Below, piece by piece: positions 18,808 through 37,117 of a DNA stretch of 42,450 nucleotides. This DNA comes from an uncultured Porphyromonadaceae bacterium. GTDB lineage: Bacteria > Bacteroidota > Bacteroidia > Bacteroidales > Muribaculaceae. The stretch is taken from the NCBI GenBank assembly GCA_947177635.1, contig CAMWVQ010000020.1:1-42450 (forward strand), in the 5' to 3' direction. How positions within the stretch are numbered: the stretch's first letter is position 1; each line of letters opens with the position of its first letter. A program made the position numbers and the translations under genes. The notes beneath the pieces were generated by a model. That model worked only from the letters and a program-made list of their open reading frames with translations. It was not told the DNA's origin and did no database searches.

Positions 18808-19025
18808 TAGCCGTAAATCCGCCCCCTGTGGAGTCGCGGCTTTGCTCTTCTGATTACAGATTGTTGATAACCAGAGGATAAGGTTGTGTCTTGCCTGTTG
18901 GCAATGCGCTTCACTTTGATTCGGTTGCCGGCAATGCAAGTTATCTAACCCTAATATGGCTGTCCCGAGGGCCTGTTGCCGTGTGGGATGACCACTGCAG
19001 ACCAGGAATCACAACAAAATAGTTC
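18808..19025 (+). other. Long structured leader of the nuo/atp operon
   Basis: About 210 nt without a gene. It holds two inverted repeats with the same arms, TTGCC/GGCAA (18891-18904 with a 4-base loop; 18925-18934 as a perfect 10-bp palindrome), each followed by ATGC. It also has two tiny open frames: 18904-18948 (MRFTLIRLPAMQVI) and 18956-18991 (MAVPRACCRVG). No known riboswitch was recognised. The rest of the 371-bp gap, 18655-18799, holds the ribD hairpins and the promoter. Confidence 0.45.
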
Positions 19026-19403
19026 ATGATATCTTTAGGAATTTTTGGCATCGACGCCGTAGTGTTCGCCATCGTGGCGCTGCTCACCGGAGCAGGGCTT
19101 GTATGGCTGGCTATGTGGCTCGCCGGCCTTATTTCTCCCCGCTCCTTCAACCCGCAGAAAGGAGAGGCTTATGAGTGTGGTATCCCGACCCGTGGCGAAT
19201 CAATGGCCCGCTTCCATGTCGGCTACTATCTGTTCGCCATCCTCTTCCTGATGTTCGACGTGGAAACCGTCTTCCTGTTCCCCTGGGCCGTCAAGATGCG
19301 CGCCCTCGGAGGCGAAGGGGTTCTCTGCGTCGCTGTTTTTTTCGCAATCTTAGTGCTGGGCCTCGTTTACGCCTGGCGGAAAGGAGCGCTTGAATGGAAA
19401 TGA
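19026..19403 (+). CDS. nuoA: NADH-quinone oxidoreductase subunit A
   Basis: A 125-residue membrane subunit of complex I next to the quinone site. It has three TM helices (first at about 8-32) and the conserved loop FNPQKGEAYECGIPTRGE, followed by ARFHVGYYLFAILFLMFDVETVFLFPWA, whose DVE motif is diagnostic. It is the first gene of the 18-gene block and overlaps nuoB by 10 bp, implying translational coupling. The usual small length and all key residues are present. Confidence 0.97.
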   Translation: MISLGIFGIDAVVFAIVALLTGAGLVWLAMWLAGLISPRSFNPQKGEAYECGIPTRGESMARFHVGYYLFAILFLMFDVETVFLFPWAVKMRALGGEGVLCVAVFFAILVLGLVYAWRKGALEWK

Positions 19404-20023
19404 AGCATGTGACCGCCCAGGGGCTTCCTTACGAGGCCTGGAAGGACAACGAATACATCGAGAAGCTCGTCACCGAGCTTCAGGAGTCGGGAACCAACGT
19501 GCTCGTCGGTTCGCTCGACAAACTTATCAACTGGGGGCGTTCAAACTCGCTCTGGCCGCTCACCTTCGCCACCAGTTGCTGCGGCATCGAATTCGTGTCG
19601 CTTGGAGCCGCCCGTTTTGACATGGCGCGATTCGGCTGGGAAGTAGCCCGTGCCTCGCCCCGTCAGGCCGACTTCATGATGGTTGCCGGAACGATTGTAC
19701 ACCGTATGGTGCCTGTCTTCCGCCGCCTCTACGACCAGCTTGCCGAGCCCAAGTATGTCATCGCCTGCGGTTCCTGCGCCATCTCCGGCGGCCCCTTCCG
19801 CAAAAGCTACCATGTGGCGAAGGGCATAGAGGACATCGTCCCTGTCGACGTGTTCTGCCCCGGATGCCCTCCCCGTCCTGAGGCGATGATTTACTCAATC
19901 ATGCAGCTCTCGCGCAAAATCAAGGTGGAACGCTTCTTCGGAGGCAAGAACCGCCAGGAGAACCAGAAGGAATTTCTCGCCGCACACCCCATCGAGGATG
20001 TCGCCGCGGCCAACATTGACTGA
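19394..20023 (+). CDS. nuoB: NADH-quinone oxidoreductase subunit B
   Basis: This 209-residue peripheral subunit carries iron-sulphur cluster N2, the last electron carrier before quinone. The cluster ligands are visible: TSCCGIEF (tandem cysteines), ACGSCAISGG and CPGCPPRPEA. The core covers about residues 35-165, and the charged tail after RKIKVERFF is a little longer than in E. coli. It overlaps nuoA by 10 bp and lies 20 bp before nuoCD. Confidence 0.98.
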   Translation: MEMKHVTAQGLPYEAWKDNEYIEKLVTELQESGTNVLVGSLDKLINWGRSNSLWPLTFATSCCGIEFVSLGAARFDMARFGWEVARASPRQADFMMVAGTIVHRMVPVFRRLYDQLAEPKYVIACGSCAISGGPFRKSYHVAKGIEDIVPVDVFCPGCPPRPEAMIYSIMQLSRKIKVERFFGGKNRQENQKEFLAAHPIEDVAAANID

Positions 20024-20043
20024 TAAACCATCATACGACATAC

Positions 20044-21666
20044 ATGGCTAACTTGCAGGAAAAAATCTCGCGTCTCTTCCCCGAAGCTACCTTCGAGGAG
20101 GGTGAGATTTTGCTGGTGAACATCCCCGACGCAAAACTTCACGACCTTGTGAAGTCGCTCCGCGACGACTGCGGTTTCGACTATCTCGTGACCATCGTCG
20201 GCATGGACTGGGTGTCCTCACTGGGATGTATATATTATCTGACTTCCTCAGCAACCAAGGAGTTCGTCTCGGTCAAGGTGCAGACCACCGACCGCGACAA
20301 CCCTATGATTCACTCTATCGCCGACCTTTACCGCATCGCCGGCATATATGAGCGTGAAGTCTATGATTTCTACGGGATTATCTTTATCAACAATCCCGAT
20401 ATGCGACGTCTTTTCCTCAATATCGACTGGGTGGGCTACCCCCTGCGCAAGGATTACGACGCTAACCCCGAAATCAACCCCGTCTCAATCGAAAACGAGC
20501 GTCAGACCGACCACACCGACACATGGGTGGAGCAGCCTGACGGTTCGATAAAGCACGAGCGTCCGAGGGTATTCAATGAGAATGACTTCGTCGTGAACAT
20601 CGGCCCGCAGCACCCCGCCACACACGGCGTGTTGCGTTTCCGCACTGCTGTCGATGGCGAGACAATCCAGAAAATCGACGTTTACATGGGTTATATCCAT
20701 CGCGGCGTCGAGAAGCTCTGCGAGGATCTGGGATACATGCAGACCCTCCACTTCATGGACCGTCTCGACTACTTCTCGGCCCACAATTACCACCACGGCC
20801 TCTGCCTGGCGATTGAGAAAGCAGCTGGCATCGAAGTGCCTCGCCGCGCCCAGGTAATCCGTGTGATGATGGACGAGCTGTCGCGTATCGCCTCCCACTG
20901 CCTCTTCATCGGTACATTCTGTATGGACCTCGGGGCTACGACAATGCTTTTCTACACACTCCGCGTGCGTGAGCAGATTCTCGACATCATGGAGAAGACT
21001 TGCGGCGCCCGCATGACTTTCAATTACGATTGTCTCGGCGGTGTGATGGCCGACCTCCATCCCGATTTCGTCAAGGATGTGAAGGAGCTTCTTGAGATTC
21101 TTCCCAAGAATGTGGCCGAATACAACAAACTCTTCACCGGCAATGTGATTGCCCACAACCGCCTCAAGAATGTGGGTGTGCTCACAAACGAGGATGCCCG
21201 TTCCTGGGCCATCACCGGCCCCTCCGGACGTGCTTCCGGCTGGGCCTGCGATGTCCGCAAGACCCATCCTTACAGCGTGTACTCTGAAATCAATTTCGAC
21301 CAGGTCGTGCGTACCGAAGGCGACTCACTCGCCCGTTTCAAGAACCGTGTCGACGAGATTCTCCAGTCGAAAGGCATCCTCGAGCAGCTTCTCGAGATGC
21401 TCCCCGAGGGTGAGTACTGCGCCAAGGTGCCAAAGGTGATCAAGCTCCCTGTCGGACACTGGTTCCAGGTTGTCGAGGGTTGCCGCGGTCTGTTCGGTGT
21501 CTACATCGAGAGCGACGGTTCCGCCAAGCCTTACCGCCTGAAACTTGTCACTCCCGGTCTCCCCGCCGCCGCTGTGGTCGACCACATCACCCGCGGGCAG
21601 AAGATTGCCGACCTCATCACCATCGGAGGCTCGATGGACTACATCGTGCCCGATATGGACCGCTGA
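20044..21666 (+). CDS. nuoCD: NADH-quinone oxidoreductase fused subunits C and D
   Basis: A 540-residue fusion of the 30-kDa (NuoC) and 49-kDa (NuoD) subunits, which lie in the connecting arm and help form the quinone pocket. NuoC spans about residues 1-145, with YEREVYDFYGIIF and a MRRLF segment. NuoD begins near residue 175 with NIGPQHPATHGVLRF and continues with MGYIHRGVEKL, RLDYFSAHNYHHG and the C-terminal PDMDR. The fusion is usual in Bacteroidota and enterobacteria. No peripheral NADH-oxidising module (nuoE, F, G) is found in the block, so electrons must enter from another donor, possibly ferredoxin or flavodoxin. Confidence 0.97.
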   Translation: MANLQEKISRLFPEATFEEGEILLVNIPDAKLHDLVKSLRDDCGFDYLVTIVGMDWVSSLGCIYYLTSSATKEFVSVKVQTTDRDNPMIHSIADLYRIAGIYEREVYDFYGIIFINNPDMRRLFLNIDWVGYPLRKDYDANPEINPVSIENERQTDHTDTWVEQPDGSIKHERPRVFNENDFVVNIGPQHPATHGVLRFRTAVDGETIQKIDVYMGYIHRGVEKLCEDLGYMQTLHFMDRLDYFSAHNYHHGLCLAIEKAAGIEVPRRAQVIRVMMDELSRIASHCLFIGTFCMDLGATTMLFYTLRVREQILDIMEKTCGARMTFNYDCLGGVMADLHPDFVKDVKELLEILPKNVAEYNKLFTGNVIAHNRLKNVGVLTNEDARSWAITGPSGRASGWACDVRKTHPYSVYSEINFDQVVRTEGDSLARFKNRVDEILQSKGILEQLLEMLPEGEYCAKVPKVIKLPVGHWFQVVEGCRGLFGVYIESDGSAKPYRLKLVTPGLPAAAVVDHITRGQKIADLITIGGSMDYIVPDMDR

Positions 21667-21728
21667 CGTCTGCAATAGGAACCAACTAAGAAACGAAAAA
21701 TTCCTGATACCCAATCACGTTACTTGTC

Positions 21729-22835
21729 ATGAGTAATTACACAATAGATAATTTCAGCAGCCTCTCGACCTGGTTCGACACGATGCTCAACAACTTTATG
21801 CCCTCCTGGCTCGCCACGACGCTGGAGTGCGTGCTGGTCGGCGTCGGCTTGCTGCTGGTCTACTCTGTGCTGGCGCTCTTCTACATCCTCTACGAGCGTA
21901 AGATTTGTGCCTACTTCCAGTGTCGTCTCGGCCCCAACCGCGTCGGCCCCTGGGGTCTGCTGCAGAGTGTCGCCGACATGTTCAAGATTCTCATCAAGGA
22001 GCTTATCTCCCTGAACCATGTCGACAAGTTCCTCTTCGCCCTGGCTCCCTACCTGGTGATTATCGCGTCAGTGCTCTGCTTCGCTGTGCTTCCCTGGGGT
22101 AACGGCCTGCAGATTATCGATTTCAACATCGGTATCTTCTTCCTGCTGGCCTGCTCGTCAATCGGAGTCCTCGGCATCCTCCTGGCCGGATGGTCGTCAA
22201 ACAACAAGTTCACCCTCATCGGTGCGCTCCGCTCAGGAGCCCAGATGGTCAGCTATGAACTTTCTGTAGGTTTATCCATTCTTACTATGGTGGTGTTCGC
22301 CGGCACGATGGATGTTGCCAAGATTGTGGAGGCCCAGGCCGACCACTGGTTCATCTTCTCGGCTCATATCCCCGCGATCATTGCTTTTGTGATTTACATG
22401 ATTGCCGGTACGGCCGAGACCAACCGTGGCCCGTTCGACCTTCCCGAAGCCGAGAGCGAGCTGACCGCCGGTTACCACACCGAGTATTCCGGTATCCACT
22501 TCGGATTCTTCTACCTCGCCGAATACCTCAACCTCTTCATCGTCTCAGGAGTGGCCACGCTTCTCTTCTTCGGTGGCTGGATGCCTTTCCGCGTCGCCGG
22601 CTGGGACGGTTTCAATGAGATTATGGGCTATATCCCCTCTGTGGTATGGTTCATCGGCAAGGCTTTCGTGATTTCTTTCATCATCATCTGGTTCAAGTGG
22701 ACATATCCCCGTCTCCGCATCGACCAGCTGCTGACACTGGAATGGAAATACCTCCTGCCCATCAACCTGGTAAACCTTGCCCTGATGGTTTGGATTGTGG
22801 TTGAAGGCTTCTACTTCGGCCAGCTTCCCCAGTAA
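21729..22835 (+). CDS. nuoH: NADH-quinone oxidoreductase subunit H
   Basis: A 368-residue membrane subunit that forms most of the quinone-access chamber. About eight to nine TM helices are visible. Diagnostic segments are [58 protein letters not shown] and the C-terminal [19 protein letters not shown]. In most Bacteroidota nuoI would follow directly; here the next gene, 48 bp later, is atpD. That 48-bp gap shows no hairpin with a T-run and no TAnnTTTG box. Confidence 0.97.
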
Positions 22836-22871
22836 ACCCGAAAATTCCCCCTGACAAAACAAACGCATTAA

Positions 22872-24386
<1,515 letters not shown>

Positions 24387-24402
24387 ACCTGTAGCAACCT
24401 GC

Positions 24403-24431
24403 CGGACACGGTGTAAGCCGCCGTGGCCGGA
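24403..24431 (+). other. Hairpin between atpD and atpC
   Basis: CCGG-a-CACGG pairs with CCGTG-g-CCGG around a 9-base loop in the 71-bp gap. No T-run follows. It could be an mRNA-processing or stability element, since beta is needed in three copies and epsilon in one. Confidence 0.4.
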
Positions 24432-24457
24432 TTCAATATCGAATCGACAACTCAATT

Positions 24458-24691
24458 ATGGTTCTCAAGATAATTTCAGCAGAGAAAGTGCTTTTCGAGG
24501 GGGAGGCCTCTTCGGTCACCCTTCCCGGCGAGATGGGACAGTTCACCGTCCTGCCACGCCACGCATCGCTGGTGTCTACCCTCGTAAAGGGTAAAATCAA
24601 GTATGCCGAAGGCACCGGGCACCATGAGATAGAAGTCGAAGGCGGGATTGTGGATGTCGACAACGACGTCGTTTCCGTCTGCATTTACTGA
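24458..24691 (+). CDS. atpC: F-type ATP synthase subunit epsilon, short form
   Basis: This 77-residue central-stalk subunit contains only the N-terminal beta-sandwich: LKIISAEKVLFEGEASSVTLPGEMGQFTVLPRHASLVS, ending with EVEGGIVDVDNDVVSVCIY. The C-terminal two-helix domain of the approximately 135-residue E. coli subunit, which locks the enzyme against ATP hydrolysis, is missing. Short epsilon subunits are common in Bacteroidota, so this is not a truncation. It means that this form of autoinhibition is not available. atpB follows after 32 bp, without an intervening small gene. Confidence 0.95.
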   Translation: MVLKIISAEKVLFEGEASSVTLPGEMGQFTVLPRHASLVSTLVKGKIKYAEGTGHHEIEVEGGIVDVDNDVVSVCIY

Positions 24692-24723
24692 CCGTTCAAC
24701 AAGACAATCACCAGGCTTCCAAA

Positions 24724-25929
24724 ATGAAGAAGTTGCTTTTTATACTGGTTCTGATGACAGGCTGGGCAATCTCCGCGATTGCCGCTGACAATGTCGCGCA
24801 GACCGCCGCCCCGGACACAACGGCCTCCGTTTCCGCCACCGCCGACGACAACCGTCTGGAGGAGGCTCTTGACAAGGCCGCCGAGGAGACCGACGAGCAT
24901 AAGTTCGACATCAAGGAAACCATCTTCGAGCATCTCGGGGACGGTTACGGTTGGGAAGTGCCTTTCAACCATCACAAGCGCATCCCCCTCCCCGTGATAG
25001 TCTGGGGCAAGGACGGCCTGCATGTCTTCTCTTCTTCCCGCGTGACCCACGGGGATGAGTATGTCGACGGCGACGCCACCTTCAAGATTGCCACCGAAGG
25101 AGACTACAAGGGGAAACTCGTCGAGATTGTCGACGGCAAGGAATACAAGCCGTGGGATTTCTCCATCACCAAGAATGTGTGTGCGATATTCATAGCCTGC
25201 ATCATAGTGTTGCTTCTTGTCCTTCAGCTTGCCCGCTGGCACAAGAAGAATCCTTTCAAGGCTCCCCGCAAGATGACCGGCGCCATCGAGGCCCTTGTGG
25301 AATTCATCTATGACGGGGTAATCAAACCCACCCTCAAGGAGAAGTCAGCGAAGTTCGCCCCCTACCTGCTGACGGTGTTCTTCTTCATCTTCTTCATGAA
25401 CCTGCTCGGGCTCATGGTTGTGTTCCCCGGCGGAGCCAACGTTACCGGCAATATCGCCGTGACAATGGTGCTGGCCATAATGACATTCGTGATGACCAAC
25501 GTGTTCGGCACAAAGGTCTACTGGAAGGAAATCTTCTGGCCTGATGTCCCCCTCTGGCTCAAGTTCCCCCTCCCCATCATGCAGATGATTGAGGTGTTCG
25601 GTATCTTCACCAAGCCCGCCGCGCTCACAGTCCGTCTGTTCGCCAATATGATGGGCGGCCATATGATTGTGCTGATTCTGACCCTCCTTATATTCATCTT
25701 CGCCAGCATGGGTGTGGCCGTCGCCTCCGGTACAGCCGTCATCTCTATCGCCTTCTCGGTGTTCATGCTCCTGATTGATGTTCTGGTCAGCTTCATCCAG
25801 GCCTATGTGTTCACGATGCTCTCCACAATCTTCATCTCCCTGGCTCAGGCCAAGCATGAGGAACACGCCGCCCACGGCGGCAAGGAGGGTGAAAACGTTG
25901 CCCACACCGCCCCCGAGGCCGCAAAATAA
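24724..25929 (+). CDS. atpB: F-type ATP synthase subunit a with exported N-terminal extension
   Basis: The 401-residue stator subunit that holds the proton half-channels. The essential arginine is Arg304 in PAALTVRLFANMMGGH, and the membrane part (from about residue 152) has five to six TM helices. Ahead of it is an unusual N-terminus: a signal peptide (MKKLLFILVLMTGWAISAIAA), then about 130 residues outside the membrane with HKFDIKETIFEHLGDGYGWE and WGKDGLHVF. Such extensions are known in Bacteroidota subunit a, but their role is unclear. The C-terminus is His-rich (KHEEHAAHGG). Upstream and downstream gaps are 32 and 48 bp. Confidence 0.96.
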   Translation: MKKLLFILVLMTGWAISAIAADNVAQTAAPDTTASVSATADDNRLEEALDKAAEETDEHKFDIKETIFEHLGDGYGWEVPFNHHKRIPLPVIVWGKDGLHVFSSSRVTHGDEYVDGDATFKIATEGDYKGKLVEIVDGKEYKPWDFSITKNVCAIFIACIIVLLLVLQLARWHKKNPFKAPRKMTGAIEALVEFIYDGVIKPTLKEKSAKFAPYLLTVFFFIFFMNLLGLMVVFPGGANVTGNIAVTMVLAIMTFVMTNVFGTKVYWKEIFWPDVPLWLKFPLPIMQMIEVFGIFTKPAALTVRLFANMMGGHMIVLILTLLIFIFASMGVAVASGTAVISIAFSVFMLLIDVLVSFIQAYVFTMLSTIFISLAQAKHEEHAAHGGKEGENVAHTAPEAAK

Positions 25930-25977
25930 GTAATAAACAGTAAAAGTTATAAACCCCCAAAACAAAAACTCTTCGCT

Positions 25978-26223
25978 ATGTTAGCAATGATTTTAGCAGC
26001 AGTCGAGGCTCTTCTTGGCCTTGGTGCATCCGTAGCTGCCGGCATCGCCGCAATCGCAGCCGGTATCGGTATCGGTAAGATTGGTGCTTCCGCCATGGAG
26101 GCCATCGCCCGCCAGCCCGAAGCTGCCGGCGACATCCGCTCGAACATGATTGTGATTGCCGCTCTTATCGAAGGTGTGGCTCTGTTTGCGGTCATCGTCT
26201 GCATCCTCGCCCTGTTCGTATAA
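25978..26223 (+). CDS. atpE: F-type ATP synthase subunit c
   Basis: An 81-residue two-helix proteolipid that forms the rotating c-ring. The glycine-rich helix 1 (ASVAAGIAAIAAGIGIGKIG), the polar loop ARQPEA and helix 2 with the ion-carrying Glu65 (AALIEGVALF) are all present. In sodium-coupled c subunits a Gln sits at position 32 and Ser-Thr follow the Glu; here these are Ile32 and Gly66-Val67. The ring is therefore predicted to carry protons (inference). A 125-bp hairpin-rich gap follows, the largest within the block. Confidence 0.97.
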   Translation: MLAMILAAVEALLGLGASVAAGIAAIAAGIGIGKIGASAMEAIARQPEAAGDIRSNMIVIAALIEGVALFAVIVCILALFV

Positions 26224-26233
26224 ACCTTGCTGA

Positions 26234-26303
26234 CCGGGGAGACTCCCCTCGGGCTGTTTCCCCGGCCAAGGCTTGATTACTGTCGGGAGCCGTCCGGCTC
26301 CCG
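26234..26303 (+). promoter_or_regulatory. Hairpin cluster downstream of atpE, with competing folds
   Basis: CCGGGGA (26234-26240) can pair either with TCCCC at 26244-26248 or with TCCCCGG at 26259-26265, which excludes both at once. Just after lies the perfect hairpin CGGGAGCCG-TC-CGGCTCCCG (26284-26303). No T-run follows. A 3'-stabilising or processing role for the atpE mRNA segment is plausible, because c is needed in about ten copies. Confidence 0.5.
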
Positions 26304-26348
26304 CTGCAAAACAAATGCTTAACCCTTAACAATGAGGTTGTTTTAACT

Positions 26349-26846
26349 ATGGAACTTTTCAAAGTTGATTTTGGCTTGACCATCTGGATGTTCGTGGCGT
26401 TCGCCATATTGTTTTTCATCCTGTGGAAATTCGCCTGGCCTGCCATCATGAAAGGCATTGACGGGCGTGCCGACCTTATAGACAAGGGTGTTGAGTATGC
26501 TCAGAACGCCAAGGAACAGCTTGACAACGCCCAGCTTGAAGCAGACCGCCAGGTACAGGAGGCCCGCCGCAAGGAGGCCGACATCATTGCCGAGGCCAAC
26601 CGCATGAAATCCCAGATAATCGAGCAGGCCCGTGAGGAAGCCAAGAAGGAGGCCCAGAAAGAGAAGGATGCCGCCAAGCTTTCAATCGAGCAGAGCCGCC
26701 GCGAGGCAGAGCAGAACCTCCGCGACGAGGTGAGCCGCGTCGCCTTGCAGATTGCCGGGAAAGTAACCCGCGGACAGCTTTCGGACGACGCCGCCCAGAA
26801 GAAGCTTGTCAACAGCTACCTTGATGAAATTGAAAGTCAGAACTGA
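26349..26846 (+). CDS. atpF: F-type ATP synthase subunit b
   Basis: This 165-residue peripheral-stalk subunit has one N-terminal TM helix at about residues 9-31 (LTIWMFVAFAILFFILWKFAW), then a long charged coiled coil rich in A, E, K, Q and R (EEAKKEAQKEKDAAKLSIEQSRREAEQN). The coil docks on delta and alpha to keep the F1 head from rotating. Length is normal for the family. It lies 33 bp before atpH. Confidence 0.97.
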   Translation: MELFKVDFGLTIWMFVAFAILFFILWKFAWPAIMKGIDGRADLIDKGVEYAQNAKEQLDNAQLEADRQVQEARRKEADIIAEANRMKSQIIEQAREEAKKEAQKEKDAAKLSIEQSRREAEQNLRDEVSRVALQIAGKVTRGQLSDDAAQKKLVNSYLDEIESQN

Positions 26847-26879
26847 CAACTGAGGACCCCATTGTAATCCAATATCGCA

Positions 26880-27461
26880 ATGAACGAAGGTTTGATTCCC
26901 AAACGCTACGCAAAGGCTCTTTACAAGTTCGCTTGTGAGAAAGGGGCCGACCTGGGACTTTACCGTCTCATGGGCAACCTCGGTAGGAGTTTTGCCGACA
27001 ATCCTGCCCTGGATTCCACTGTCGCCAACCCGTTTGTGAGCGACGACCAGAAAATCGGCTTGTTGAAGACCGCCGCGGCTGCCGTCGCCGCCCCGGCGGC
27101 GAAAGATGGCGCCGACGCCAAAGCCGGCGATGTTTATGCCGATTTCCTGAAGTTGCTCGGCAACAACAAGCGGCTCCCGATGGCCGGAGCCATCGCCCGC
27201 GCCTATTGCGACATATACCGCAAGGAGAACAGGATTTACAGGGTTACGGTTGTCTCGGCCAAGCCGCTTGACGCTCCCGAGCAGCAACGTCTGTTGAAGC
27301 TCATCGAGTCTCATCTCGACGGCGGGAAGATGGAATACTCTTTCTCGACTGATCCGGAGCTTATCGGCGGATTCACGGTCGACATTGACAACGAGCGTCT
27401 CGACGCCTCGGTAAAGAACGAACTTAAACAATTGCGATTAAAGCTTTTGAAGCAGGCTTGA
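26880..27461 (+). CDS. atpH: F-type ATP synthase subunit delta
   Basis: A 193-residue subunit that links the peripheral stalk to the top of the alpha/beta hexamer. It begins with the typical [19 protein letters not shown] and ends with [26 protein letters not shown] short Ala-rich segment with several Asp and Lys (about residues 67-85, [19 protein letters not shown]) interrupts the domain linker. Low sequence conservation is normal for delta; the position between atpF and atpA confirms it. Confidence 0.95.
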
Positions 27462-27504
27462 CGCCCGTAAAAGCTTAGAATGGCTCATAACAACTTTTGG
27501 ACAA

Positions 27505-29079
27505 ATGATTAATCCAAGCGAGATATCGGAAGTTTTAAAGCAGCAGCTTGAGAATGTCAACAAGTCGGTTGCTTTCGAAGAGGTAGGAACCGTTCTGGAA
27601 GTCGGCGACGGGGTCGCCCACGTCTACGGCCTTGACAACGTGTGCGCCAACGAGCTCGTAGAGTTCGAGAACGGCGTCAAAGGTGTCGCCCTCAACCTTG
27701 AGGAGAGCAATGTCGGGGTCATCCTGCTCAATGACGTGAACAAAGTTACTGAGAACATGACCGTGCGCCGCACAGGCGAGATTGCCTCCATTCCCGTGGG
27801 TGAGGGGCTTTTCGGCCGTGTCATCAATATCCTGGGCGAGCCTATCGATGGTCGCGGACCTATCGACGGGAAGCTCTACCGCATGCCCCTGGAGCGCAAG
27901 GCTCCCGGAGTCATCTTCCGCCAGTCTGTGAAGCAGCCCCTCCAGACCGGCATCAAGGCCGTCGACTCGATGGTGCCCATCGGCCGAGGCCAGCGAGAGC
28001 TCATCATCGGCGACCGCCAGATCGGAAAGACCGCCATCGCTCTCGACACCATCATCAACCAGAGAAAGAATTACGAGGACGGCAAGCCTGTCTACTGTAT
28101 CTACGTGGCAATCGGCCAGAAGGCATCTTCTGTGGCGGCCATCGTGGAGACCTTGCGTCAGCACGGCGCCCTCGACTACACCTGCGTGGTGGCCGCGACC
28201 GCCTCTGACTCCGCGGCCATGCGCTATTACTCACCCTTCGCCGGTGTGGCGATCGGGGAGTTCATCCGCGATACCGGGCGTGATGCCCTTATCATATACG
28301 ACGACCTGTCGAAGCAGGCTGTCGCCTACCGTGAAATCTCGCTGGTGCTGAAGCGTCCGTCAGGACGTGAGGCTTACCCCGGTGACATCTTCTATCTCCA
28401 CTCACGTCTGCTCGAGCGTGCCGCCAAGATTATCGACAACCAGCAGGTGGCCGAGAAGATGAACGACCTGCCCGAGGTGCTCAAGCCCATGGTCAAGGGT
28501 GGAGGTTCGCTTACCGCCCTCCCCATCATCGAGACCCAGGCCGGCGACGTGTCGGCTTACATCCCGACCAACGTGATTTCAATCACCGACGGCCAGATTT
28601 ATCTTGAGACCGCCCTGTTCAACCGTGGTATCCGTCCGGCCATCAACGTGGGTATCTCAGTGTCGCGTGTCGGCGGTAACGCCCAGATCAAGTCGATGAA
28701 GAAGGTGGCCGGTACGCTGAAAATCGACCAGGCGCAGTTCCGCGAGCTCGAATCGTTCACCAAGTTCGGTGGCGACATCGACCCGGTTACCGCCCGCGTC
28801 ATCGACCGTGGCCGCAAGAACGAGCAGCTTCTCATCCAGCCCCAGTACAAGCCCTGGGCCGTGGAGGAGGAGGTCGCCGTCATCTTCTGCGGTGTGAACG
28901 GACTTCTCTCAGACGTGCCCGTAGAGAAGGTGGCCGAGTTCCAGCAGGGACTTCTCCAGCTCCTCCACGCCAAATACCAGGCCGACGTGCTTGATGTCAT
29001 CAAGTCAGGACAGCTCACCGACGACTGCACCGCCAAGCTGACACAGGCCGCCACCGAAGTGGCCCAGCGTTACGCCTGA
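27505..29079 (+). CDS. atpA: F-type ATP synthase subunit alpha
   Basis: The 524-residue non-catalytic nucleotide-binding subunit of F1. Walker A is GDRQIGKT (169-176), followed by [53 protein letters not shown] and the alpha signature [14 protein letters not shown]. Length is close to the usual 505-525. It is 43 bp after atpH and 69 bp before atpG. Confidence 0.98.
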
Positions 29080-29148
29080 TTCCCGACTGACACAGTCACG
29101 TCAAACCCAACCAACAACAATTAACCGGATTCCCGCAAACAACCGTTA

Positions 29149-30027
29149 ATGGCAACCTTAAGAGAACTCAAAGGCAGAATCGGCTCGGTGGCTTCTTCCG
29201 AGAAAATCACCGGCGCGATGAAGATGATTTCGTCGGCGAAAATGCACAAGGCCGAGGGCGCGCTCCGTCAGCTCCGTCCCTACCGTGACCAGGTGGAGAC
29301 GATTATCGGCAACCTGCTCGCCTCCGACGCGGCATTCGATTCGCCGCTCATGACTCCCCGCGACGCTGTGGAGCGGGTGGCCGTGGTTGTGTGGGGTTCC
29401 GACGATGGCCTTTGCGGAGCCTACAACATAAACATCTTCAAGCAGCTCCTCGCCAAGATAGGGGAGTATCGCGAGACCCTTGGCGAGAATGTGAGAATCA
29501 CAGTGATTCCCGTCGGGGCGAAGATGGCGAAGGCTGTCTCCAAGATAAAGACCCCCGGGGTCGACATGCGGATGCCCCAGGGGGTCGATTCAAAGACCGC
29601 CGAGGTCAGGGATTTCACCTGGAGCCTGCGCGACAGCTTCCTCTCCGGAGAGTTCGACCGTGTCGATGTCCTCTATATGTCGTACAAGTCGGTCAGCCGC
29701 CAGCGCCTGGAGTCGGCCGAGCTTATCCCCGTCACTTCTGCAGCCTTCGCCTCGGTGAAAGGTGATGTCGCGGCTAAGCCCTACATCTTCGAGCCGTCGG
29801 CAGCAGCGATTTTCGCGAAAGTGTTGCCGATGTACCTCCTGGCGGTGATTCAGGACATCTTCACCGAGAACCGCGCCAGCGAGCAGGCCGCCAGGGTCAT
29901 GGCCATGCAGAGCGCCAACGACAACGCAAAGAAGCTCCACGACCAGTTGCAGCTTGAGTTCAACAAACTTCGCCAGCAGGCCATCACAACCGAGTTGCTC
30001 GACATCCTCGGCGGCCAGGTGAAGTAA
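29149..30027 (+). CDS. atpG: F-type ATP synthase subunit gamma
   Basis: The 292-residue rotating shaft of F1. The N-terminal helix (LKGRIGSVASSEKITGAMKMISSAKM) and C-terminal helix (RQQAITTELLDILGG) that form the coiled coil are conserved, with the Rossmann-like domain between them (VVVWGSDDGLCGAYNINIF). It closes the ATP synthase set. The next gene, 45 bp later, is nuoI; that gap is AT-rich and shows no terminator or TAnnTTTG box. Confidence 0.97.
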   Translation: MATLRELKGRIGSVASSEKITGAMKMISSAKMHKAEGALRQLRPYRDQVETIIGNLLASDAAFDSPLMTPRDAVERVAVVVWGSDDGLCGAYNINIFKQLLAKIGEYRETLGENVRITVIPVGAKMAKAVSKIKTPGVDMRMPQGVDSKTAEVRDFTWSLRDSFLSGEFDRVDVLYMSYKSVSRQRLESAELIPVTSAAFASVKGDVAAKPYIFEPSAAAIFAKVLPMYLLAVIQDIFTENRASEQAARVMAMQSANDNAKKLHDQLQLEFNKLRQQAITTELLDILGGQVK

Positions 30028-30072
30028 CTTCCACGAATAATAACAGACATTATCATATCGCTTAAAAACAAT

Positions 30073-30927
30073 ATGGGTAGTATTAAAGATTATTTTTCAG
30101 GTCTGGGAAAAGGAGTGACCAGCCTTGTCAAGGGTCTGCAAGTGACCGGCAAGGAGTTCGTCACCCCGAAGATTACTGAGAAATATCCCGACAACCGCGA
30201 GGACATGCACATCGCGCAGCGCTTCCGCGCCACCCTCCAGTTTATCTATGACAAAGAGGGTAACCACAAGTGCATCGCCTGCGGCACATGCGAGAGGAAC
30301 TGTCCCAACGGCACCATCACCATCGAGACGAAGATGGCAGACACTTGGGATGGAAAGAAAAAGAAAAAACTCGACCGTTATACCTACGATCTGGGCAGTT
30401 GCACCTTCTGCCAGCTCTGCGTGCAGACCTGTCCGACCAACGCCATCGAGTTCAGCAACGATTTCGAGCAGGCTGTGTTCACCCGTTCAAAACTTGTGAA
30501 GCAGCTCAACTACCTCCCCGAGAAGCCCGAACCCAAACCGACCCCCGAGCAGATTGCCAAGCTCGAGGCTGAGAAGAAGGCAAAAATCGAAGCTGCGAAG
30601 GCCGCTGCCGCCGCCAAGAAAGCCGCAGCAGCCGAAGCTCCCGCCGCAGTCGAGCTTGACGAGAAGGCCAAGAAGGCCCTCGCCGCCGCCGAGGCAACCG
30701 GAGACCCCGAGAAAATCGCCAAGGTGAAAGCCGCCCTCGAGAAGGCTGCAAAGCTCAAGGCCGCCCAGGCCCCCGCTCCGGCTGCACCCGCCGCAGTCGA
30801 GCTTGACGAGAAAGCCAAGAAGGCCCTCGCCGCCGCCGAGGCAACCGGAGACCCCGAGAAAATCGCCAAAGTGAAGGCCGCCCTCGAGAAGGCCGCCAAA
30901 CTCAAGGCCGAAAAAGGCAACGCCTGA
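30073..30927 (+). CDS. nuoI: NADH-quinone oxidoreductase subunit I with repeated Ala/Lys tail
   Basis: Ferredoxin-like subunit carrying two 4Fe-4S clusters that pass electrons toward NuoB. The ligands are CIACGTCERNCPNG (first) and CTFCQLCVQTCPTNAI (second). The core ends near residue 150. A tail of about 130 residues follows, rich in Ala, Lys, Glu and Pro, which is far beyond the normal 160-180-residue protein. The tail holds two near-identical units (VELDEKAKKALAAAEATGDP...AALEKAAKLKA) about 49 residues apart, joined by an Ala-Pro linker. Each unit would form helices. The tail's role is unknown; tethering a soluble electron donor or the missing NuoEFG face is a guess. It resumes the nuo order after the atp genes. 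Confidence 0.95.
   Translation: MGSIKDYFSGLGKGVTSLVKGLQVTGKEFVTPKITEKYPDNREDMHIAQRFRATLQFIYDKEGNHKCIACGTCERNCPNGTITIETKMADTWDGKKKKKLDRYTYDLGSCTFCQLCVQTCPTNAIEFSNDFEQAVFTRSKLVKQLNYLPEKPEPKPTPEQIAKLEAEKKAKIEAAKAAAAAKKAAAAEAPAAVELDEKAKKALAAAEATGDPEKIAKVKAALEKAAKLKAAQAPAPAAPAAVELDEKAKKALAAAEATGDPEKIAKVKAALEKAAKLKAEKGNA
30646..30912 (+). repeat. Tandem repeat in the 3' part of nuoI
   Basis: Two copies of a unit of about 120 bp, beginning GCAGTCGAGCTTGACGAG at 30646 and 30793 (147-bp period including the linker). They differ at only a few, mostly silent, third positions. The near identity implies a recent duplication or ongoing gene conversion. Confidence 0.85.
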
Positions 30928-30972
30928 TTTCACGGGCCTCACAAACCAATCAGAAAAAAGTAAAAAAATAAT

Positions 30973-31491
30973 ATGGAATCAGTAGGAAGTATCATCGTTT
31001 ATGTGGTAATCGCTCTGACGATTGTCATCTGCTCGGTGCTTGCTGTCACCACGCGCAAGATTCTGCGCGCCGCGACCTACCTGCTCTTCACCCTTTTTGC
31101 TACCGCCGCCCTTTATTTCAAGCTCGACTATGAGTTCCTCGGCGCGGTGCAGATTGCGGTGTACGCGGGCGGTATCGTGGTCTTGTTCGTCTTCTCAATA
31201 CTCCTGACGAGCCACCCCGGCGACAACAGTGCCAAACTTGCCTCCAGAAAACGCGCACTCGGGCTTGCCGGCTCGCTGTTGCTGCTGATTGTCGCAGGCT
31301 ACTCTCTGATGAGCCGCTGCGAGTTATGGTCGGCGCTCCCCCAGGGAGAGAACCCCTCAATGAATCAAATCGGCGAGACACTTATGGGTACGGCCCACGG
31401 CCAGTACCTGTTGCCTTTCGAGGCCATAAGCGTCCTGTTGCTCGCCTGTATAATCGGCGGTGTTGTCGTAGCCCGCAAAAATAAAAACTAA
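30973..31491 (+). CDS. nuoJ: NADH-quinone oxidoreductase subunit J
   Basis: This 172-residue membrane subunit of complex I has five predicted TM helices. The conserved segment YEFLGAVQIAVYAGGIVVLFVFSILL is in TM3, where a pi-bulge is known to matter for coupling. The C-terminal helix is PFEAISVLLLACIIGGVVVARK. It lies 45 bp after nuoI and 11 bp before nuoK. Confidence 0.96.
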   Translation: MESVGSIIVYVVIALTIVICSVLAVTTRKILRAATYLLFTLFATAALYFKLDYEFLGAVQIAVYAGGIVVLFVFSILLTSHPGDNSAKLASRKRALGLAGSLLLLIVAGYSLMSRCELWSALPQGENPSMNQIGETLMGTAHGQYLLPFEAISVLLLACIIGGVVVARKNKN

Positions 31492-31502
31492 GCCCCGCTA
31501 AT

Positions 31503-31814
31503 ATGGAACTTACAATCCTCTGGTATCTGATTCCGAGCCTGTTGATGTTCTGCTGCGGCGTTTATGGCTTCATCACCCGCAAGAATATGATCGCGATGCT
31601 CATCTCCCTGGAGCTGATGCTCAACGCGGTCGACATCAACTTCGTTGTCTTCAACCGTTTCCTCTTCCCCGGGGAGCTTGAAGGCATGTTCTTCACCCTG
31701 TTCGCCATCGCCCTGGCCGCTGCCGAGACAGCGTTGGCAATCGCCATCATCATCAATGTCTTCCGCGTCTCCGAGAAGATTGATGTCGACGATGTAACTA
31801 AAATGAAATTCTAA
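31503..31814 (+). CDS. nuoK: NADH-quinone oxidoreductase subunit K
   Basis: A 103-residue three-helix subunit with the conserved membrane glutamates in SLELMLNAVDINFV and AAAETALAIAIIINVFR, both part of the hydrophilic axis of complex I. Normal length. It lies 11 bp after nuoJ and 8 bp before nuoL, so the three are tightly coupled. Confidence 0.97.
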   Translation: MELTILWYLIPSLLMFCCGVYGFITRKNMIAMLISLELMLNAVDINFVVFNRFLFPGELEGMFFTLFAIALAAAETALAIAIIINVFRVSEKIDVDDVTKMKF

Positions 31815-31822
31815 GCACCGAT

Positions 31823-33853
31823 ATGGAACCTGTAATACCTATCATTATCCTGGCTTTGCCCCTGACGATGTTCCTGGTGCTGGGACTTTTCGGCCACAAG
31901 ATGGCCCACCGCACCGCAGGCATCCTCGGCACTCTCGGAATGGGAGTGACAATGGTGCTGGCCTACATCACCGCGTTCACATATTTCTTCTCAGGCTCCT
32001 CCGAGTTCATCAATGAGGAGGGTGTGCGCCTGCAGAGCCTCATTTTCAACTGGGACTGGCTGGCGTTCACCGATTCACTGGTAATCCGCCTCGGATTCCT
32101 GCTTGACCCGATTTCAGCCCTGATGCTTGTGGTCATAACGACCATCTCGTTTATGGTCCACCTTTACAGCAACGGCTATATGCGCGACCACCACGGCGTG
32201 TGGGAAACCGGTTTCCAGCGTTTCTACGCATTCCTGTCGCTCTTCAGCTTCTCGATGCTGGGCCTGGTTGTCGCCACCAACATTTTCCAGATGTATATCT
32301 TCTGGGAGCTTGTGGGTGCGTCATCCTACCTGCTGATCGGATTCTACTACACCAAGCCGTCGGCCGTGTCCGCCTCCAAGAAGGCGTTCATCGTCACCCG
32401 TTTCGCCGACCTCGGCTTCCTGATCGGTATCCTCGTGCTGAGCTTCTACACAGGGACATTCGACTTCACCAACTTCACCTCTGTCGGTGTCGAGGGTATG
32501 GCTAATGTATATCAGGTAGACATCACCACCGCCGAAGGCATCCGCAACTGGATTGCCACCTCACCCGCTCCCGTGTTCATGGGAGGCTCCGTGCTGACCT
32601 GGGCGCTCGTCCTCATCTTCATGGGCGGTATGGGTAAGTCGGCCATGATGCCCCTCCACATCTGGCTTCCCGACGCGATGGAAGGCCCGACCCCTGTGTC
32701 GGCCCTCATCCACGCCGCGACAATGGTTGTGGCCGGTGTGTTCCTCGTTGCCCGTCTCTTCCCCCTCTACCTTATGGAGGAGGCCGCCCTCAACATAATC
32801 ACGGTTGTCGGCGCGCTCACCGCCTTCTACGCCGCGATGGTGGCCTGCACCCAGGTCGACATCAAGCGAGTGCTGGCGTTCTCGACCATCTCGCAGATTG
32901 CGTTCATGATGGTTTCGCTGGGTGTGGCCCGTCCCGAGTTCCACCACGGTCTGGGTTACATGGCGGCCATGTTCCACCTCTTCACCCACGCGATGTTCAA
33001 GGCCCTGCTCTTCCTTTGCGCCGGTGCCCTCATCCATGCCATCGGGTCTAACGACTACACCGCAATGCACGGCCTGCGCAAGCATATGCCGATTACCCAT
33101 ATCACATTCCTGATCGGCTGTCTGGCAATCGCGGGTATCATCCCCTTCGCCGGCTTCTTCTCCAAGGATGAAATCCTGACAGCAGTCTTCGGCCAGTCTA
33201 TCTTCTGGTACATCTGGATGTCGGCCGTGGCCGGTCTGACCGCCTTCTATATGTTCCGTCTCTACTACCTGATTTTCTGGTGGAAGGAACACAAGATTCC
33301 CGAGGGACACCACGCTCCCCACGACCAGCCCTGGACTATGACCCTCCCGCTTGTCATCCTCGCGGTGATTTCCTGCGTGGCCGGATTCGTGCCTTTCGGC
33401 AACCTGGTTACCTGGAACGGCCATCCGATGTTCGAGTCTGTCAACTTCTTCACCAACCTCGGCGCGCTCGACTGGAGCGTGGCATCGATAAGCCTCGCGG
33501 TTGCAATAGTGGCCATCCTGCTCGCGACCGTGATGTACAAGAAGGAGAACACCCTCCCCGCTAAGATGAAGAACGCCCTGCCCGCTCTCTGGGACTGGTG
33601 CTACCACCGCTTCTACTGGGACGAGCTCTATATGTTCATCACCCACAAGATCATCTTCGGATGCATCTCCAAGCCCATCGCCTGGTTTGACCGTCACGTC
33701 ATCGACGGTTCGATGGACGGCATGGCCTGGGTGACACAGCGCATCTCGTTCGCCATCCGCGGTCTCCAGTCAGGCAACATCCAGTTCTACGTCTGGGTTT
33801 ACCTCATCGGCGTGATACTGCTTGGCGCGATAACCGCAGTCTGCCTCATCTGA
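31823..33853 (+). CDS. nuoL: NADH-quinone oxidoreductase subunit L
   Basis: The 676-residue distal antiporter-like proton-pump subunit, with about sixteen TM helices and a long lateral helix at the C-terminal end. Key segments are FWELVGASSYLLIGFYY (conserved glutamate), GKSAMMPLHIWLPDAMEGPTPVSALIHAATMVVAG, KRVLAFSTISQIAFMMVSLG and FFSKDEIL. Length is at the upper end of the family. The next gene, nuoM, starts 55 bp later. Confidence 0.97.
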   Translation: MEPVIPIIILALPLTMFLVLGLFGHKMAHRTAGILGTLGMGVTMVLAYITAFTYFFSGSSEFINEEGVRLQSLIFNWDWLAFTDSLVIRLGFLLDPISALMLVVITTISFMVHLYSNGYMRDHHGVWETGFQRFYAFLSLFSFSMLGLVVATNIFQMYIFWELVGASSYLLIGFYYTKPSAVSASKKAFIVTRFADLGFLIGILVLSFYTGTFDFTNFTSVGVEGMANVYQVDITTAEGIRNWIATSPAPVFMGGSVLTWALVLIFMGGMGKSAMMPLHIWLPDAMEGPTPVSALIHAATMVVAGVFLVARLFPLYLMEEAALNIITVVGALTAFYAAMVACTQVDIKRVLAFSTISQIAFMMVSLGVARPEFHHGLGYMAAMFHLFTHAMFKALLFLCAGALIHAIGSNDYTAMHGLRKHMPITHITFLIGCLAIAGIIPFAGFFSKDEILTAVFGQSIFWYIWMSAVAGLTAFYMFRLYYLIFWWKEHKIPEGHHAPHDQPWTMTLPLVILAVISCVAGFVPFGNLVTWNGHPMFESVNFFTNLGALDWSVASISLAVAIVAILLATVMYKKENTLPAKMKNALPALWDWCYHRFYWDELYMFITHKIIFGCISKPIAWFDRHVIDGSMDGMAWVTQRISFAIRGLQSGNIQFYVWVYLIGVILLGAITAVCLI

Positions 33854-33908
33854 GCGGCGCCTGAATCTTACAGTGAAAATATAGTATCATAGAAATACAG
33901 AAACAGAG

Positions 33909-35426
33909 ATGTTTTCAAACCTTCTGATTTACTTCGTGGTGATTCCCCTGCTGATGCTGGCCGGGTTCGCCATCTGCAAAAACATCAGGCAGGTGCGCAC
34001 GGTCGCCGTGGCCGGCTCGCTCCTGCTGGTGGGCCTGAGCGTGTGGGTCCTTTGCGACTACCTCGCCCTGCGCGCGGCAGGCAATATGGAGGAGATGCTC
34101 TTCCGTGGAGACTGGACATGGTTCGCTCCGCTGAACATCAAGCTCTCCGTCGGAGTCGACGGAGTCTCCATCGCGATGCTCATCCTCTCCTCAATCATCG
34201 TTTTCGCCGGCTCGTTCGCTTCCTGGAAGATTGACGATGCGCGCCACTTCTTCATGTGGCTCATCCTCCTCTCCACCGGTGTCTACGGTTTCTTCATCTG
34301 CATCGACCTGTTCACGATGTTCATGTTCTACGAGGTCGCCCTTATCCCTATGTACCTTCTCATCGGTGTGTGGGGAACCGGCCGCAAAGAGTACTCGGCG
34401 ATGAAGCTCACCCTGATGCTTATGGGTGGTTCGGCCTTCCTGATGCTCAGCCTCATCGGCATCTACTTCCACTCGGCTCCCGAAGGACAGGCCCTGACCT
34501 GGAACATCATTGACATCGCCCGCAACGTCGAGGAGACACAGTGCATCTCGAAGGGATGGCAGTATTTCCTCTTCCCGATGTGCTTCGTCGGCTTCGGTGT
34601 GCTGGGTGCTATGTTCCCCTTCCACACCTGGAGCCCTGACGGTCACGCCTGCGCGCCGACCGCCGTGTCGATGCTCCACGCCGGTGTGCTTATGAAACTG
34701 GGAGGTTACGGCTGCTTCCGTGTGGCCATGTACCTGATGCCCCAGGCCGCCAACGACCTCGCCTGGATATTCCTCATCCTGACTGGAATCTCGGTTGTCT
34801 ACGGAGCCTTCTCGGCTTGCGTGCAGACCGACCTCAAATACATCAACGCATACTCCTCGGTAAGCCACTGCGGTATGGTGCTCTTCGCCATCCTTATGAT
34901 CAACACCACCGCCCTCACCGGCGCGATCATGCAGATGCTCTCCCACGGTCTTATGACGGCCCTCTTCTTCGCCCTCATCGGTATGATTTACGGCCGTACC
35001 CACACCCGTGACATCCGCCTGATGGGTGGTCTGATGAAGATACTTCCCTTCCTCGGAGTCGGATACGTCATCGCCGGTATGGCCTCGCTGGGTCTTCCCG
35101 GTCTGTCGGGATTCGTGGCCGAGATGACCATCTTCGTCGGCTCGTTCGAGCATACCGACATGTTCCACAGGGTGTTCACCATCGTGGCCTGCTGCTCGAT
35201 TGTGATTACCGCTGTCTACATCCTCCGCACAGTCGGCAAGCTGCTGTTCGGCCCGGTGCTCGACCCCCATCACGCCGAGCTGACCGACGCTTCCTGGTGG
35301 GAACGCCTGTCGACCATCACGCTCATCGTCAGCGTGGCCGCCATCGGTTGCTTCCCCAACTTCTTCGAGAGCCTTATACGTTTCACCTTCAGCCCCGAAA
35401 TATTCCGCGCCATCGGCCTCAACTGA
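33909..35426 (+). CDS. nuoM: NADH-quinone oxidoreductase subunit M
   Basis: The 505-residue antiporter-like proton-pump subunit. Conserved features are SVGVDGVSIAMLIL, FMFYEVALIPMYLLIGVWG (pump glutamate), FPFHTWSPDGHACAPTAVSMLHAGVLMKLGGYG, KYINAYSSVSHCGMVLFA and LPGLSGFVAEMTIF. About fourteen TM helices are visible. It is 44 bp before nuoN. Confidence 0.97.
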   Translation: MFSNLLIYFVVIPLLMLAGFAICKNIRQVRTVAVAGSLLLVGLSVWVLCDYLALRAAGNMEEMLFRGDWTWFAPLNIKLSVGVDGVSIAMLILSSIIVFAGSFASWKIDDARHFFMWLILLSTGVYGFFICIDLFTMFMFYEVALIPMYLLIGVWGTGRKEYSAMKLTLMLMGGSAFLMLSLIGIYFHSAPEGQALTWNIIDIARNVEETQCISKGWQYFLFPMCFVGFGVLGAMFPFHTWSPDGHACAPTAVSMLHAGVLMKLGGYGCFRVAMYLMPQAANDLAWIFLILTGISVVYGAFSACVQTDLKYINAYSSVSHCGMVLFAILMINTTALTGAIMQMLSHGLMTALFFALIGMIYGRTHTRDIRLMGGLMKILPFLGVGYVIAGMASLGLPGLSGFVAEMTIFVGSFEHTDMFHRVFTIVACCSIVITAVYILRTVGKLLFGPVLDPHHAELTDASWWERLSTITLIVSVAAIGCFPNFFESLIRFTFSPEIFRAIGLN

Positions 35427-35470
35427 CACGGTTGACAACCCTTTGAAACGGAAGAAACCAATTCTGCAAT

Positions 35471-36940
35471 ATGGATTACTCTCAATTTTTGGCAATGAAA
35501 CAGGAAATCGCCCTGCTTGTGGTGTTCCTGTTGGTATTCCTCTATGATACGTTCATGCCCCGCAAGGCTCTGGGCGCCACCTCCGCCGTGACCTCAGTGC
35601 TGTTCCTCCTCTTCACAGTGTGGAGCTTCATCTGGGGTGTCCCCGCTGACTCCGTCGAGGCCTTCGCCGGGATGTATGTAACCTCCCCCGTGTGTGCGAT
35701 GATAAAGAACATCCTGAATGTCGGTGTGCTGATAGTCCTCATCCAGGCAACCTCCTGGGTCAACTCCGAATTCCAGATTGTCCGCCGCGGTGAGTACTAC
35801 GAGCTGCTGCTGGTGACCCTCTTCGGAATGTACCTGATGATTTCCGCCCGTCACTTCCTGCTCTTCCTCATCGGTCTTGAGTCGGCATCGCTTCCCCTGG
35901 CAGCGATGGTGGCATTCGACAAGCACCGTTACGAGAGCCATGAGGCTGCGGTGAAATACCTGATGACAGCCGTGTTCTCCTCGGCCATCTTCATGATGGG
36001 ACTGTCGTTTGTCTACGGTCTTTCAGGCTCGCTCTACTTCGAGGACATCGCGATGCAGCTCGGCTCGCAGAGCAACACCATGCTCGTCATGGCCCTCGCA
36101 TTCGTGGTTTCCGGTCTCGGATTCAAGCTCTCGCTTGTGCCCTTCCATCTCTGGACAGCCGACGTTTACCAGGGTGCGCCTACCCCCGTCACCTCCTATC
36201 TGTCGGTAATCTCGAAGGGAGCCGCCGCTTTCGCGTTCCTGGTGATTCTGGTGCAGGCTTTCGGCCAGTTCTACAGCCAGGTATGGGAGTGGATGCTCTA
36301 TGCCCTGATTATCGCCACCATCACCATCGGTAACCTCTTCGCCATCCGCCAGCGCAACATGAAGCGCTTCCTGGCATTCTCCTCAATCTCACAGGCCGGT
36401 TACATAATGCTCGGCGTCGTGGGCTGCAACGAGATGGGCCTCGCGGCGATGATGTATTACATACTTGTCTACATCTTCTCGAACCTCGCGGCTTTCGGCG
36501 TTATCGGCGCAATCGAGAACAAGACCGGAATGGTGGAGATGACCGACTACAACGGTCTCTCCAAGACCAACCCCTGGCTCTCCTTCTCGATGACCCTTGC
36601 GATGTTCTCCCTGGCAGGTATCCCCCCCTTCGCCGGATTCTTCAGCAAGTTCTTCATCTTCACCTCGGCTATCAACCAAGGCTCAATCGCCATCTATGTC
36701 CTGGTATTGATTGCCCTTATCAACACCATCATCTCCCTCTACTACTACCTGCTGGTAGTGAAGGCGATGTACATCTCACCTGAAGAACCCCGCATCGGGA
36801 AGTTCCGTTCAACCTGCAGCGAGCGTGTCAGCCTTTGGGTTACCGTCCTCGGCATCATCCTGCTGGGTATCGTGAGCTGCTTCTACAACACTATTTTCAA
36901 CGCGGCGTCTCTTTCAGAGCTGTTCGGCTTCATAGCCTGA
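35471..36940 (+). CDS. nuoN: NADH-quinone oxidoreductase subunit N
   Basis: The 489-residue third antiporter-like subunit and last gene of the 18-gene block. It shows LFLIGLESASLPLAAMVAFDK (conserved glutamate), SLVPFHLWTADVYQGAPTPVTSYLSVISKGAAAFAFL, KRFLAFSSISQAGYIMLG and IPPFAGFFSKFFIF. About fourteen TM helices. A strong intrinsic terminator follows within 75 bp. Confidence 0.97.
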   Translation: MDYSQFLAMKQEIALLVVFLLVFLYDTFMPRKALGATSAVTSVLFLLFTVWSFIWGVPADSVEAFAGMYVTSPVCAMIKNILNVGVLIVLIQATSWVNSEFQIVRRGEYYELLLVTLFGMYLMISARHFLLFLIGLESASLPLAAMVAFDKHRYESHEAAVKYLMTAVFSSAIFMMGLSFVYGLSGSLYFEDIAMQLGSQSNTMLVMALAFVVSGLGFKLSLVPFHLWTADVYQGAPTPVTSYLSVISKGAAAFAFLVILVQAFGQFYSQVWEWMLYALIIATITIGNLFAIRQRNMKRFLAFSSISQAGYIMLGVVGCNEMGLAAMMYYILVYIFSNLAAFGVIGAIENKTGMVEMTDYNGLSKTNPWLSFSMTLAMFSLAGIPPFAGFFSKFFIFTSAINQGSIAIYVLVLIALINTIISLYYYLLVVKAMYISPEEPRIGKFRSTCSERVSLWVTVLGIILLGIVSCFYNTIFNAASLSELFGFIA

Positions 36941-36978
36941 TAGATTGAACTCAGGCCGGTCTCCGGCAATAGAATATC

Positions 36979-37015
36979 GGCGGCGTTCCACACATAGGGT
37001 GGGACGCCGCCTTTT
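36979..37015 (+). terminator. Strong intrinsic terminator of the nuo/atp operon
   Basis: GGCGGCGTTCCAC pairs with GTGGGACGCCGCC (13 bp, one G-U) across a 7-base loop and is followed by TTTTG. It lies 38 bp after the nuoN stop and defines the end of the 18-gene transcript. Confidence 0.9.
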
Positions 37016-37033
37016 GTTCATACAAGGGATAAT

Positions 37034-37073
37034 GGTGTGGCAAATATGGCAACGAACGCGCCGGTGTGGCAAA
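37034..37073 (+). repeat. Direct repeats upstream of the T9SS-protein promoter
   Basis: GGTGTGGCAAA occurs at 37034-37044 and 37063-37073, 29 bp apart (about three helical turns), just upstream of the -33 box at 37086. This is the place and spacing expected for activator half-sites. The remaining part of this 350-bp gap is the terminator, the promoter and a leader of about 165 nt in which I saw nothing further. Confidence 0.45.
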
Positions 37074-37085
37074 ATGAGCCGGACA

Positions 37086-37117
37086 TTTGGATATGTGAGG
37101 TCAAAACGTTATCTTTG
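37086..37117 (+). promoter_or_regulatory. Bacteroidota-type promoter of the T9SS-protein gene
   Basis: TTTG (37086-37089), then exactly 20 bp, then TATCTTTG (37110-37117), matching TTTG-N20-TAnnTTTG. The transcript would start near 37124, leaving a leader of about 165 nt before the ATG at 37291. Confidence 0.8.

Follow-up and report, generated by a model that had tools for sequence, protein, structure and literature searches.

The closest described counterpart of the locus analysed here comes from S24-7, a group that we take to be the Muribaculaceae. The available text of Ormerod et al. 2016 (PMC4936053) devotes one statement to F-type ATP synthase genes that lie inside the complex I locus in S24-7 or 'Ca. 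Homeothermaceae' (Ca., Candidatus), covering 26 genomes, and reports Nqr in 27 genomes. The stretch of DNA studied here, hereafter the window, comprises 42,450 nucleotides of contig CAMWVQ010000020.1 from an uncultured member of the Muribaculaceae. It resembles the S24-7 locus in arrangement, in family and in an 11-subunit complex I, that is, ATP synthase (atp) genes lie within the complex I (nuo) locus of a genome of that family. The nesting as such has therefore been known for this family since its publication in 2016. As far as the available text of that paper goes, the further families, the single origin and the promoter and terminator signals appear only in the present analysis. The canonical headless nuo operon of Bacteroides fragilis and Prevotella, as presented in the accessible parts of PMC7002350 and PMC6560451, shares its subunits with the window, nuoEFG being missing, and has the same gene order except for the atp insertion. 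Likewise, the minor ATP synthase unit of Bacteroidetes (beta-epsilon-a-c-b-delta-alpha-gamma; PMC5709465, available text) has an eight-gene order identical to the D-C-B-E-F-H-A-G of the window; it is treated there as stand-alone, in a main text without words starting with 'nuo' or 'NADH'. The nesting is not described in the titles and abstract openings of the other papers listed, and we do not claim its wider distribution as unpublished. What is added here is the distribution over seven families, a single RpoB clade of carriers, atp genes that look native, a promoter contrast, and apparent relics of transcription signals in other carriers.

The locus consists of 18 intact genes, all on the + strand, at 19026-36940 of the window. 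The first part is made up of nuoA (19026-19403), nuoB (19394-20023), a nuoCD fusion (20044-21666) and nuoH (21729-22835). After a junction of 48 bp (22836-22883) follow atpD (F1 beta, TIGR01039; 22884-24386), atpC (F1 epsilon; 24458-24691), atpB (Fo a, with an N-terminal extension; 24724-25929), atpE (Fo c; 25978-26223), atpF (Fo b; 26349-26846), atpH (F1 delta; 26880-27461), atpA (F1 alpha, TIGR00962; 27505-29079) and atpG (F1 gamma; 29149-30027). A second junction of 45 bp (30028-30072) leads to nuoI (30073-30927), nuoJ (30973-31491), nuoK (31503-31814), nuoL (31823-33853), nuoM (33909-35426) and nuoN (35471-36940). The gene order and the clean breaks at gene borders given in the initial annotation are thus confirmed, and so are its gaps of 8-71 bp plus one of 125 bp (at atpE-atpF), except that the coordinates of nuoA and nuoB overlap by 10 bp. 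The epsilon subunit has 77 aa and lacks the C-terminal half, which is the usual state in Bacteroidetes according to the available text of PMC4154653. The window genome, a 99.6% complete draft of 2.64 Mb in 112 contigs, contains one atpA and one atpD, and its third PF00006 match is probably rho.

Within the family the nesting is constant. Of 138 own-family genomes searched, each at least 90% complete, 137 have NuoH, and these represent all 26 genera. Every one of the 137 has an atpD match on the same strand, starting 17-177 bp downstream of nuoH; in four this match is a fragment, and a further piece of atpD lies on a different contig. The sole genome without a NuoH match (G326) has a contig that ends inside atpD, which indicates a gap and no loss. 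Closer comparisons used the best 80 of 349 relatives in a NuoH scan, which are taken to be of Muribaculaceae type and will be called hereafter the named loci, although the least similar of them may belong to neighbouring carrier families. Here atpD comes next after nuoH in 77 of 80, the other three contigs ending at most 136 bp past nuoH, and nuoI comes next in all 56 loci with a complete atpG. A survey of the order covered 295 genomes, 167 of them with any match, and took the best 80 NuoH loci after the window's own; weaker matches, including further NuoH-like ones at 50-58% identity, lie outside it. All 21 loci from seven family-level groups (labelled f1, f109, f22, f60, f88, f68 and f28) are nested, whereas all 59 loci sampled from 38 other families have nuoH next to nuoI and show no nesting. 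The canonical adjacency also occurs in the records of Bacteroides finegoldii, Phocaeicola massiliensis and Prevotella nigrescens. The initial statement that the two gene sets are normally separate in other Bacteroidota therefore stands for these 38 families and three records, and fails for the window's own family.

Mapping the adjacencies on a tree, as proposed in the initial annotation, places the carriers in one clade. In an RpoB tree of 48 genomes, which does not include G088 and G190 (no RpoB match), the 20 carriers form a single clade (SH-aLRT, Shimodaira-Hasegawa-like approximate likelihood ratio test, 99), so that one change accounts for their distribution; shuffling gave a mean of 15.4 changes, and none of 500 shuffles was as low as one. 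The nuo concatenate likewise groups 21 carriers in one clade with a support of 99. A single origin of the nesting is the simplest reading of these trees.

Transcription signals were compared next to the genes. A -7-type promoter element, TATCTTTG, occurs at 18800-18807 (+ strand), 218 nt before the nuoA start, and is the likely start of the whole unit. It matches TAnnTTTG, the Bacteroidales promoter consensus known from Bacteroides, which the initial annotation had also used. The 250 bp ahead of each of the 18 starts contain no other TAnnTTTG, as had been claimed for the two junctions, and a generic sigma-70 scan (13 sites found, 7.8 expected) gave no + strand site in either junction. The 150 bp before nuoA contain TAnnTTTG in 57 of 73 named loci (shuffles 8.0); the corresponding counts are 1 of 77 for atpD (3.9) and 3 of 56 for nuoI (2.0). 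By comparison, free-standing atpD genes of other families carry it in 19 of 23 cases (3.9). Random coding pieces, counted alongside a 250-bp version of the comparison, have it in 9 of 530. Since the motif precedes most free-standing atpD genes and almost none of those in the named loci, the atpD promoter was likely lost after the move. The leader between the element and nuoA (18808-19025) measures 218 nt, most of the 65 element-bearing named loci having a shorter one (median 121 nt); it shows little conservation apart from the promoter element, and no Rfam match was found in it.

At the other end of the locus, an intrinsic-terminator-like site with a 13-bp stem, a 7-nt loop and a T run lies after nuoN (36979-37011, + strand). 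It is the only long site on the + strand among 18 terminator-like sites found on both strands of 18500-37500, where 15.4 are expected by chance; a weak site of 7 pairs lies just inside atpD (22917-22934), and neither junction of the window contains any. The clear terminator noted earlier after nuoN is thus present as described. With one strand, short gaps, no internal TAnnTTTG and a strong terminator at the end only, the locus has the structure expected of a single operon. Folding of the 90 nt after atpG in the named loci was no better than in shuffles (median z 0.61; 6 of 56 below -2), whereas in carriers of the other families it was stabler (median z -2.56; 9 of 17 below -2). Strong hairpins after atpG also occur in some free-standing atp operons (e.g. 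L169, L174 and L183 of 10 shown), and those of the carriers may therefore be relics of an atp terminator, possibly still working as attenuators.

Taken as a whole, these patterns are probably best explained by a native atp operon that moved once into the nuo operon and fused with it gradually into one transcription unit. In the ancestor of at least seven family-level groups, a complete native operon of the order beta-epsilon-a-c-b-delta-alpha-gamma would have inserted once, exactly between nuoH and nuoI; the nested locus would then have been inherited vertically and fused stepwise with the operon around it. In the window's family both the atpD promoter and the post-atpG terminator seem to have been lost. 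One transcript of ~18 kb, starting ~0.2 kb before nuoA and ending after nuoN, would encode the 11-subunit headless complex I together with ATP synthase, the main effect being that synthesis of ATP synthase would follow the nuo promoter. A strictly fixed ratio of pump to synthase, as suggested in the initial annotation, is not implied, because translation and RNA processing can override a ratio set by the transcript, and the post-atpG hairpin of several carrier families could uncouple the downstream half. The single transcript proposed there is favoured by the promoter comparison; co-transcription is deduced from sequence, and the motif before nuoL and the hairpins of other families, described below, weigh against it. 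We suggest more tentatively, as a possibility falling somewhat short of probable, that the clade has kept successive stages of fusion: the early-branching family f88 would retain promoter motifs before atpD, several families the hairpin after atpG, and Muribaculaceae neither, with the supply of ATP synthase enslaved to the promoter of the proton pump, and with the atp operon also passed to the distant family f106. Through the nesting, two central energy complexes of a gut family stand under one likely promoter. The carrier families being seemingly at different stages of fusion, the loss of signals from an inserted operon becomes testable by comparing relatives, which also lets one ask whether shared transcription of the maker and the user of the gradient matters. 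A mutation in nuoA-H with polar effects is also likely to upset ATP synthase in these bacteria.

Alternatively, the nesting may be adaptive, in that a shared transcript would set or link how much proton pump and ATP synthase is made, or how both are assembled co-translationally in the membrane. The Nuo complex is of the headless 11-subunit type, with nuoA, B, CD, H and I-N all present. The genes nuoE, nuoF and nuoG are absent from the locus, the search for nuoE and nuoG being confined to it, and no PF01512 (51K domain) match was found genome-wide. The genome encodes one NQR2_RnfD-type protein outside the locus. As RnfC also carries the 51K domain, which is missing from the genome, this protein is likelier to belong to Nqr than to Rnf. 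These three observations together make it more likely that NADH is oxidised by Nqr instead of the headless Nuo. The available text of Ormerod et al. 2016 (PMC4936053) suggests the same for S24-7, and that of PMC7002350 reports a B. fragilis NUO without NADH dehydrogenase activity, as measured. The persistence of nesting in every NuoH-bearing family genome, throughout 26 genera and over seven families, and the missing atpD promoter motif in the family could speak for selection. However, such retention is also expected if reversal requires a new promoter, several carrier families have retained the hairpin after atpG, and with Nqr as a probable further ion pump the gradient probably does not come from complex I alone. 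We therefore regard adaptive nesting as rather unlikely.

Several points weigh against the gradual fusion of a native operon, and some of them could also mean that three or more independent transcription units are merely nested in one another. In the six other carrier families the fusion looks partial or is less clear-cut, the motif being found before nuoA in 5 of 16 loci (shuffled 2.0) and before atpD in 5 of 18 (2.2), three of the latter being all three f88 genomes, which belong to one genus. Terminator-like hairpins occur between atpG and nuoI in 7 of 17 carriers of these families. A possible internal start is suggested by a TAnnTTTG element that precedes nuoL by no more than 250 bp in 13 of 51 named loci and in 6 of the 17 other carriers; the window has none there. 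The shuffles preserve composition and not the relatedness of loci, and promoters of other types escape the motif. Terminator-like sites number 0 of 77 at nuoH-atpD and 0 of 56 at atpG-nuoI in the named loci, zeros that carry little weight with so insensitive a detector (sites at 7 of 43 nuoN ends in canonical loci); among carrier loci long enough to include the nuoN end, a site was present in 0 of 2. Furthermore, the trees are quick ones with SH-aLRT support only, and the carrier clade reaches just 76-93 in the ATP-synthase trees. The f88 motifs, the post-atpG hairpins and the nuoL motif speak for independent units. Against such units, no internal start of the window's locus is preceded by TAnnTTTG at up to 250 bp, and in the named loci the motif stays near or below the shuffled level at both atpD and nuoI. 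Separate units thus seem distinctly unlikely.

The fusion reading also supposes that the inserted operon was native, as opposed to one acquired horizontally in place of a native operon. A foreign origin was first hinted at by a long stem (SH-aLRT 100) that AtpA/AtpD of the carriers share with those of f106, a family with canonical nuo, in conflict with RpoB; it was dropped after an outgroup and basal families had been added, when f106 stood out. Joining f106 to the carriers is rejected by RpoB (approximately unbiased (AU) test, p 8e-74) and also by nuo data (p 0.0016). Conversely, ATP-synthase data reject an RpoB-like group without f106: a first test (p 0.0001) was compromised by leaving f9, f105 and f41 out of the group, and a repeat on AtpA+AtpD with these three inside still rejects it (AU p 1.6e-6). 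The long-branched f9 is placed differently in RpoB and ATP trees, and the nuo data also reject the RpoB-like core, which means that nuo is no clean species marker. Once f106 is set aside, however, ATP and RpoB trees agree on the larger group to which the carriers belong, which makes f106 the simpler recipient, and horizontal acquisition by the carriers very unlikely. In the rooted AtpA+AtpD tree (as in one other ATP tree, entries without atpA were omitted) the carriers' atp genes fall among Bacteroidales, within the same larger group as in RpoB, the exact sister being different; among the listed matches of the class sample, AtpA identity is at most 69% for genomes outside the order. The atp genes of the carriers accordingly look native to Bacteroidales.

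The f106 loci L167 and L169 combine a canonical nuo operon with a free-standing atp operon of carrier type, while RpoB puts f106 outside the carriers. These trees make it probable that an entire ATP synthase operon was passed on horizontally, most simply into f106. Open reading frames (ORFs) of five f106 loci gave one weak match to the window beyond nuo and atp. G106 has atp and nuo on opposite strands with ~11 kb between them; the two sets fall on separate contigs in G290, which allows no conclusion. In 7 of 10 free-standing atp operons (L171, L172, L174, L175, L177, L182 and L183) an extra ORF of 82-141 aa, perhaps atpI, lies between atpC and atpB; it is absent from f106 (L167, L169), L176 and the window.

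An assembly artefact, a danger raised in the initial annotation and conceivable in a draft of 112 contigs, has virtually no probability, given that the first junction recurs in 137 genomes and that both junctions are seen in the isolates Duncaniella muris DSM 103720 and Paramuribaculum intestinale DSM 100749, with a matching arrangement in the single-contig genomes G364, G416, G259 and G292.

NuoI of the window (284 aa) has a C-terminal extension rich in Ala, Lys, Glu and Pro, in which a stretch of ~40 residues is present twice in identical copies. NuoI measures 190-335 aa in 52 of 56 named loci; the range is 148-162 aa for 16 of the 17 other carriers, and mostly 146-183 aa for loci outside the window's family. 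In one family genome (L085, 12450-13217), nuoI enters unknown bases within the low-complexity extension, with unrelated genes next in line; faulty scaffolding at the repeat is the probable cause.

Outside the locus, a gene cluster at 1934-5139 encodes a nucleotidyl transferase with CBS, a cytidylyltransferase and a UDP-GlcNAc 2-epimerase, and possibly serves nonulosonic acid. An alpha-2-macroglobulin-type protein of 1953 aa is encoded upstream of the locus at 10187-16048. A group II intron RNA (RF02001, D1-D4, 132 bits) lies on the + strand at 42189-42359, at the end of the window.

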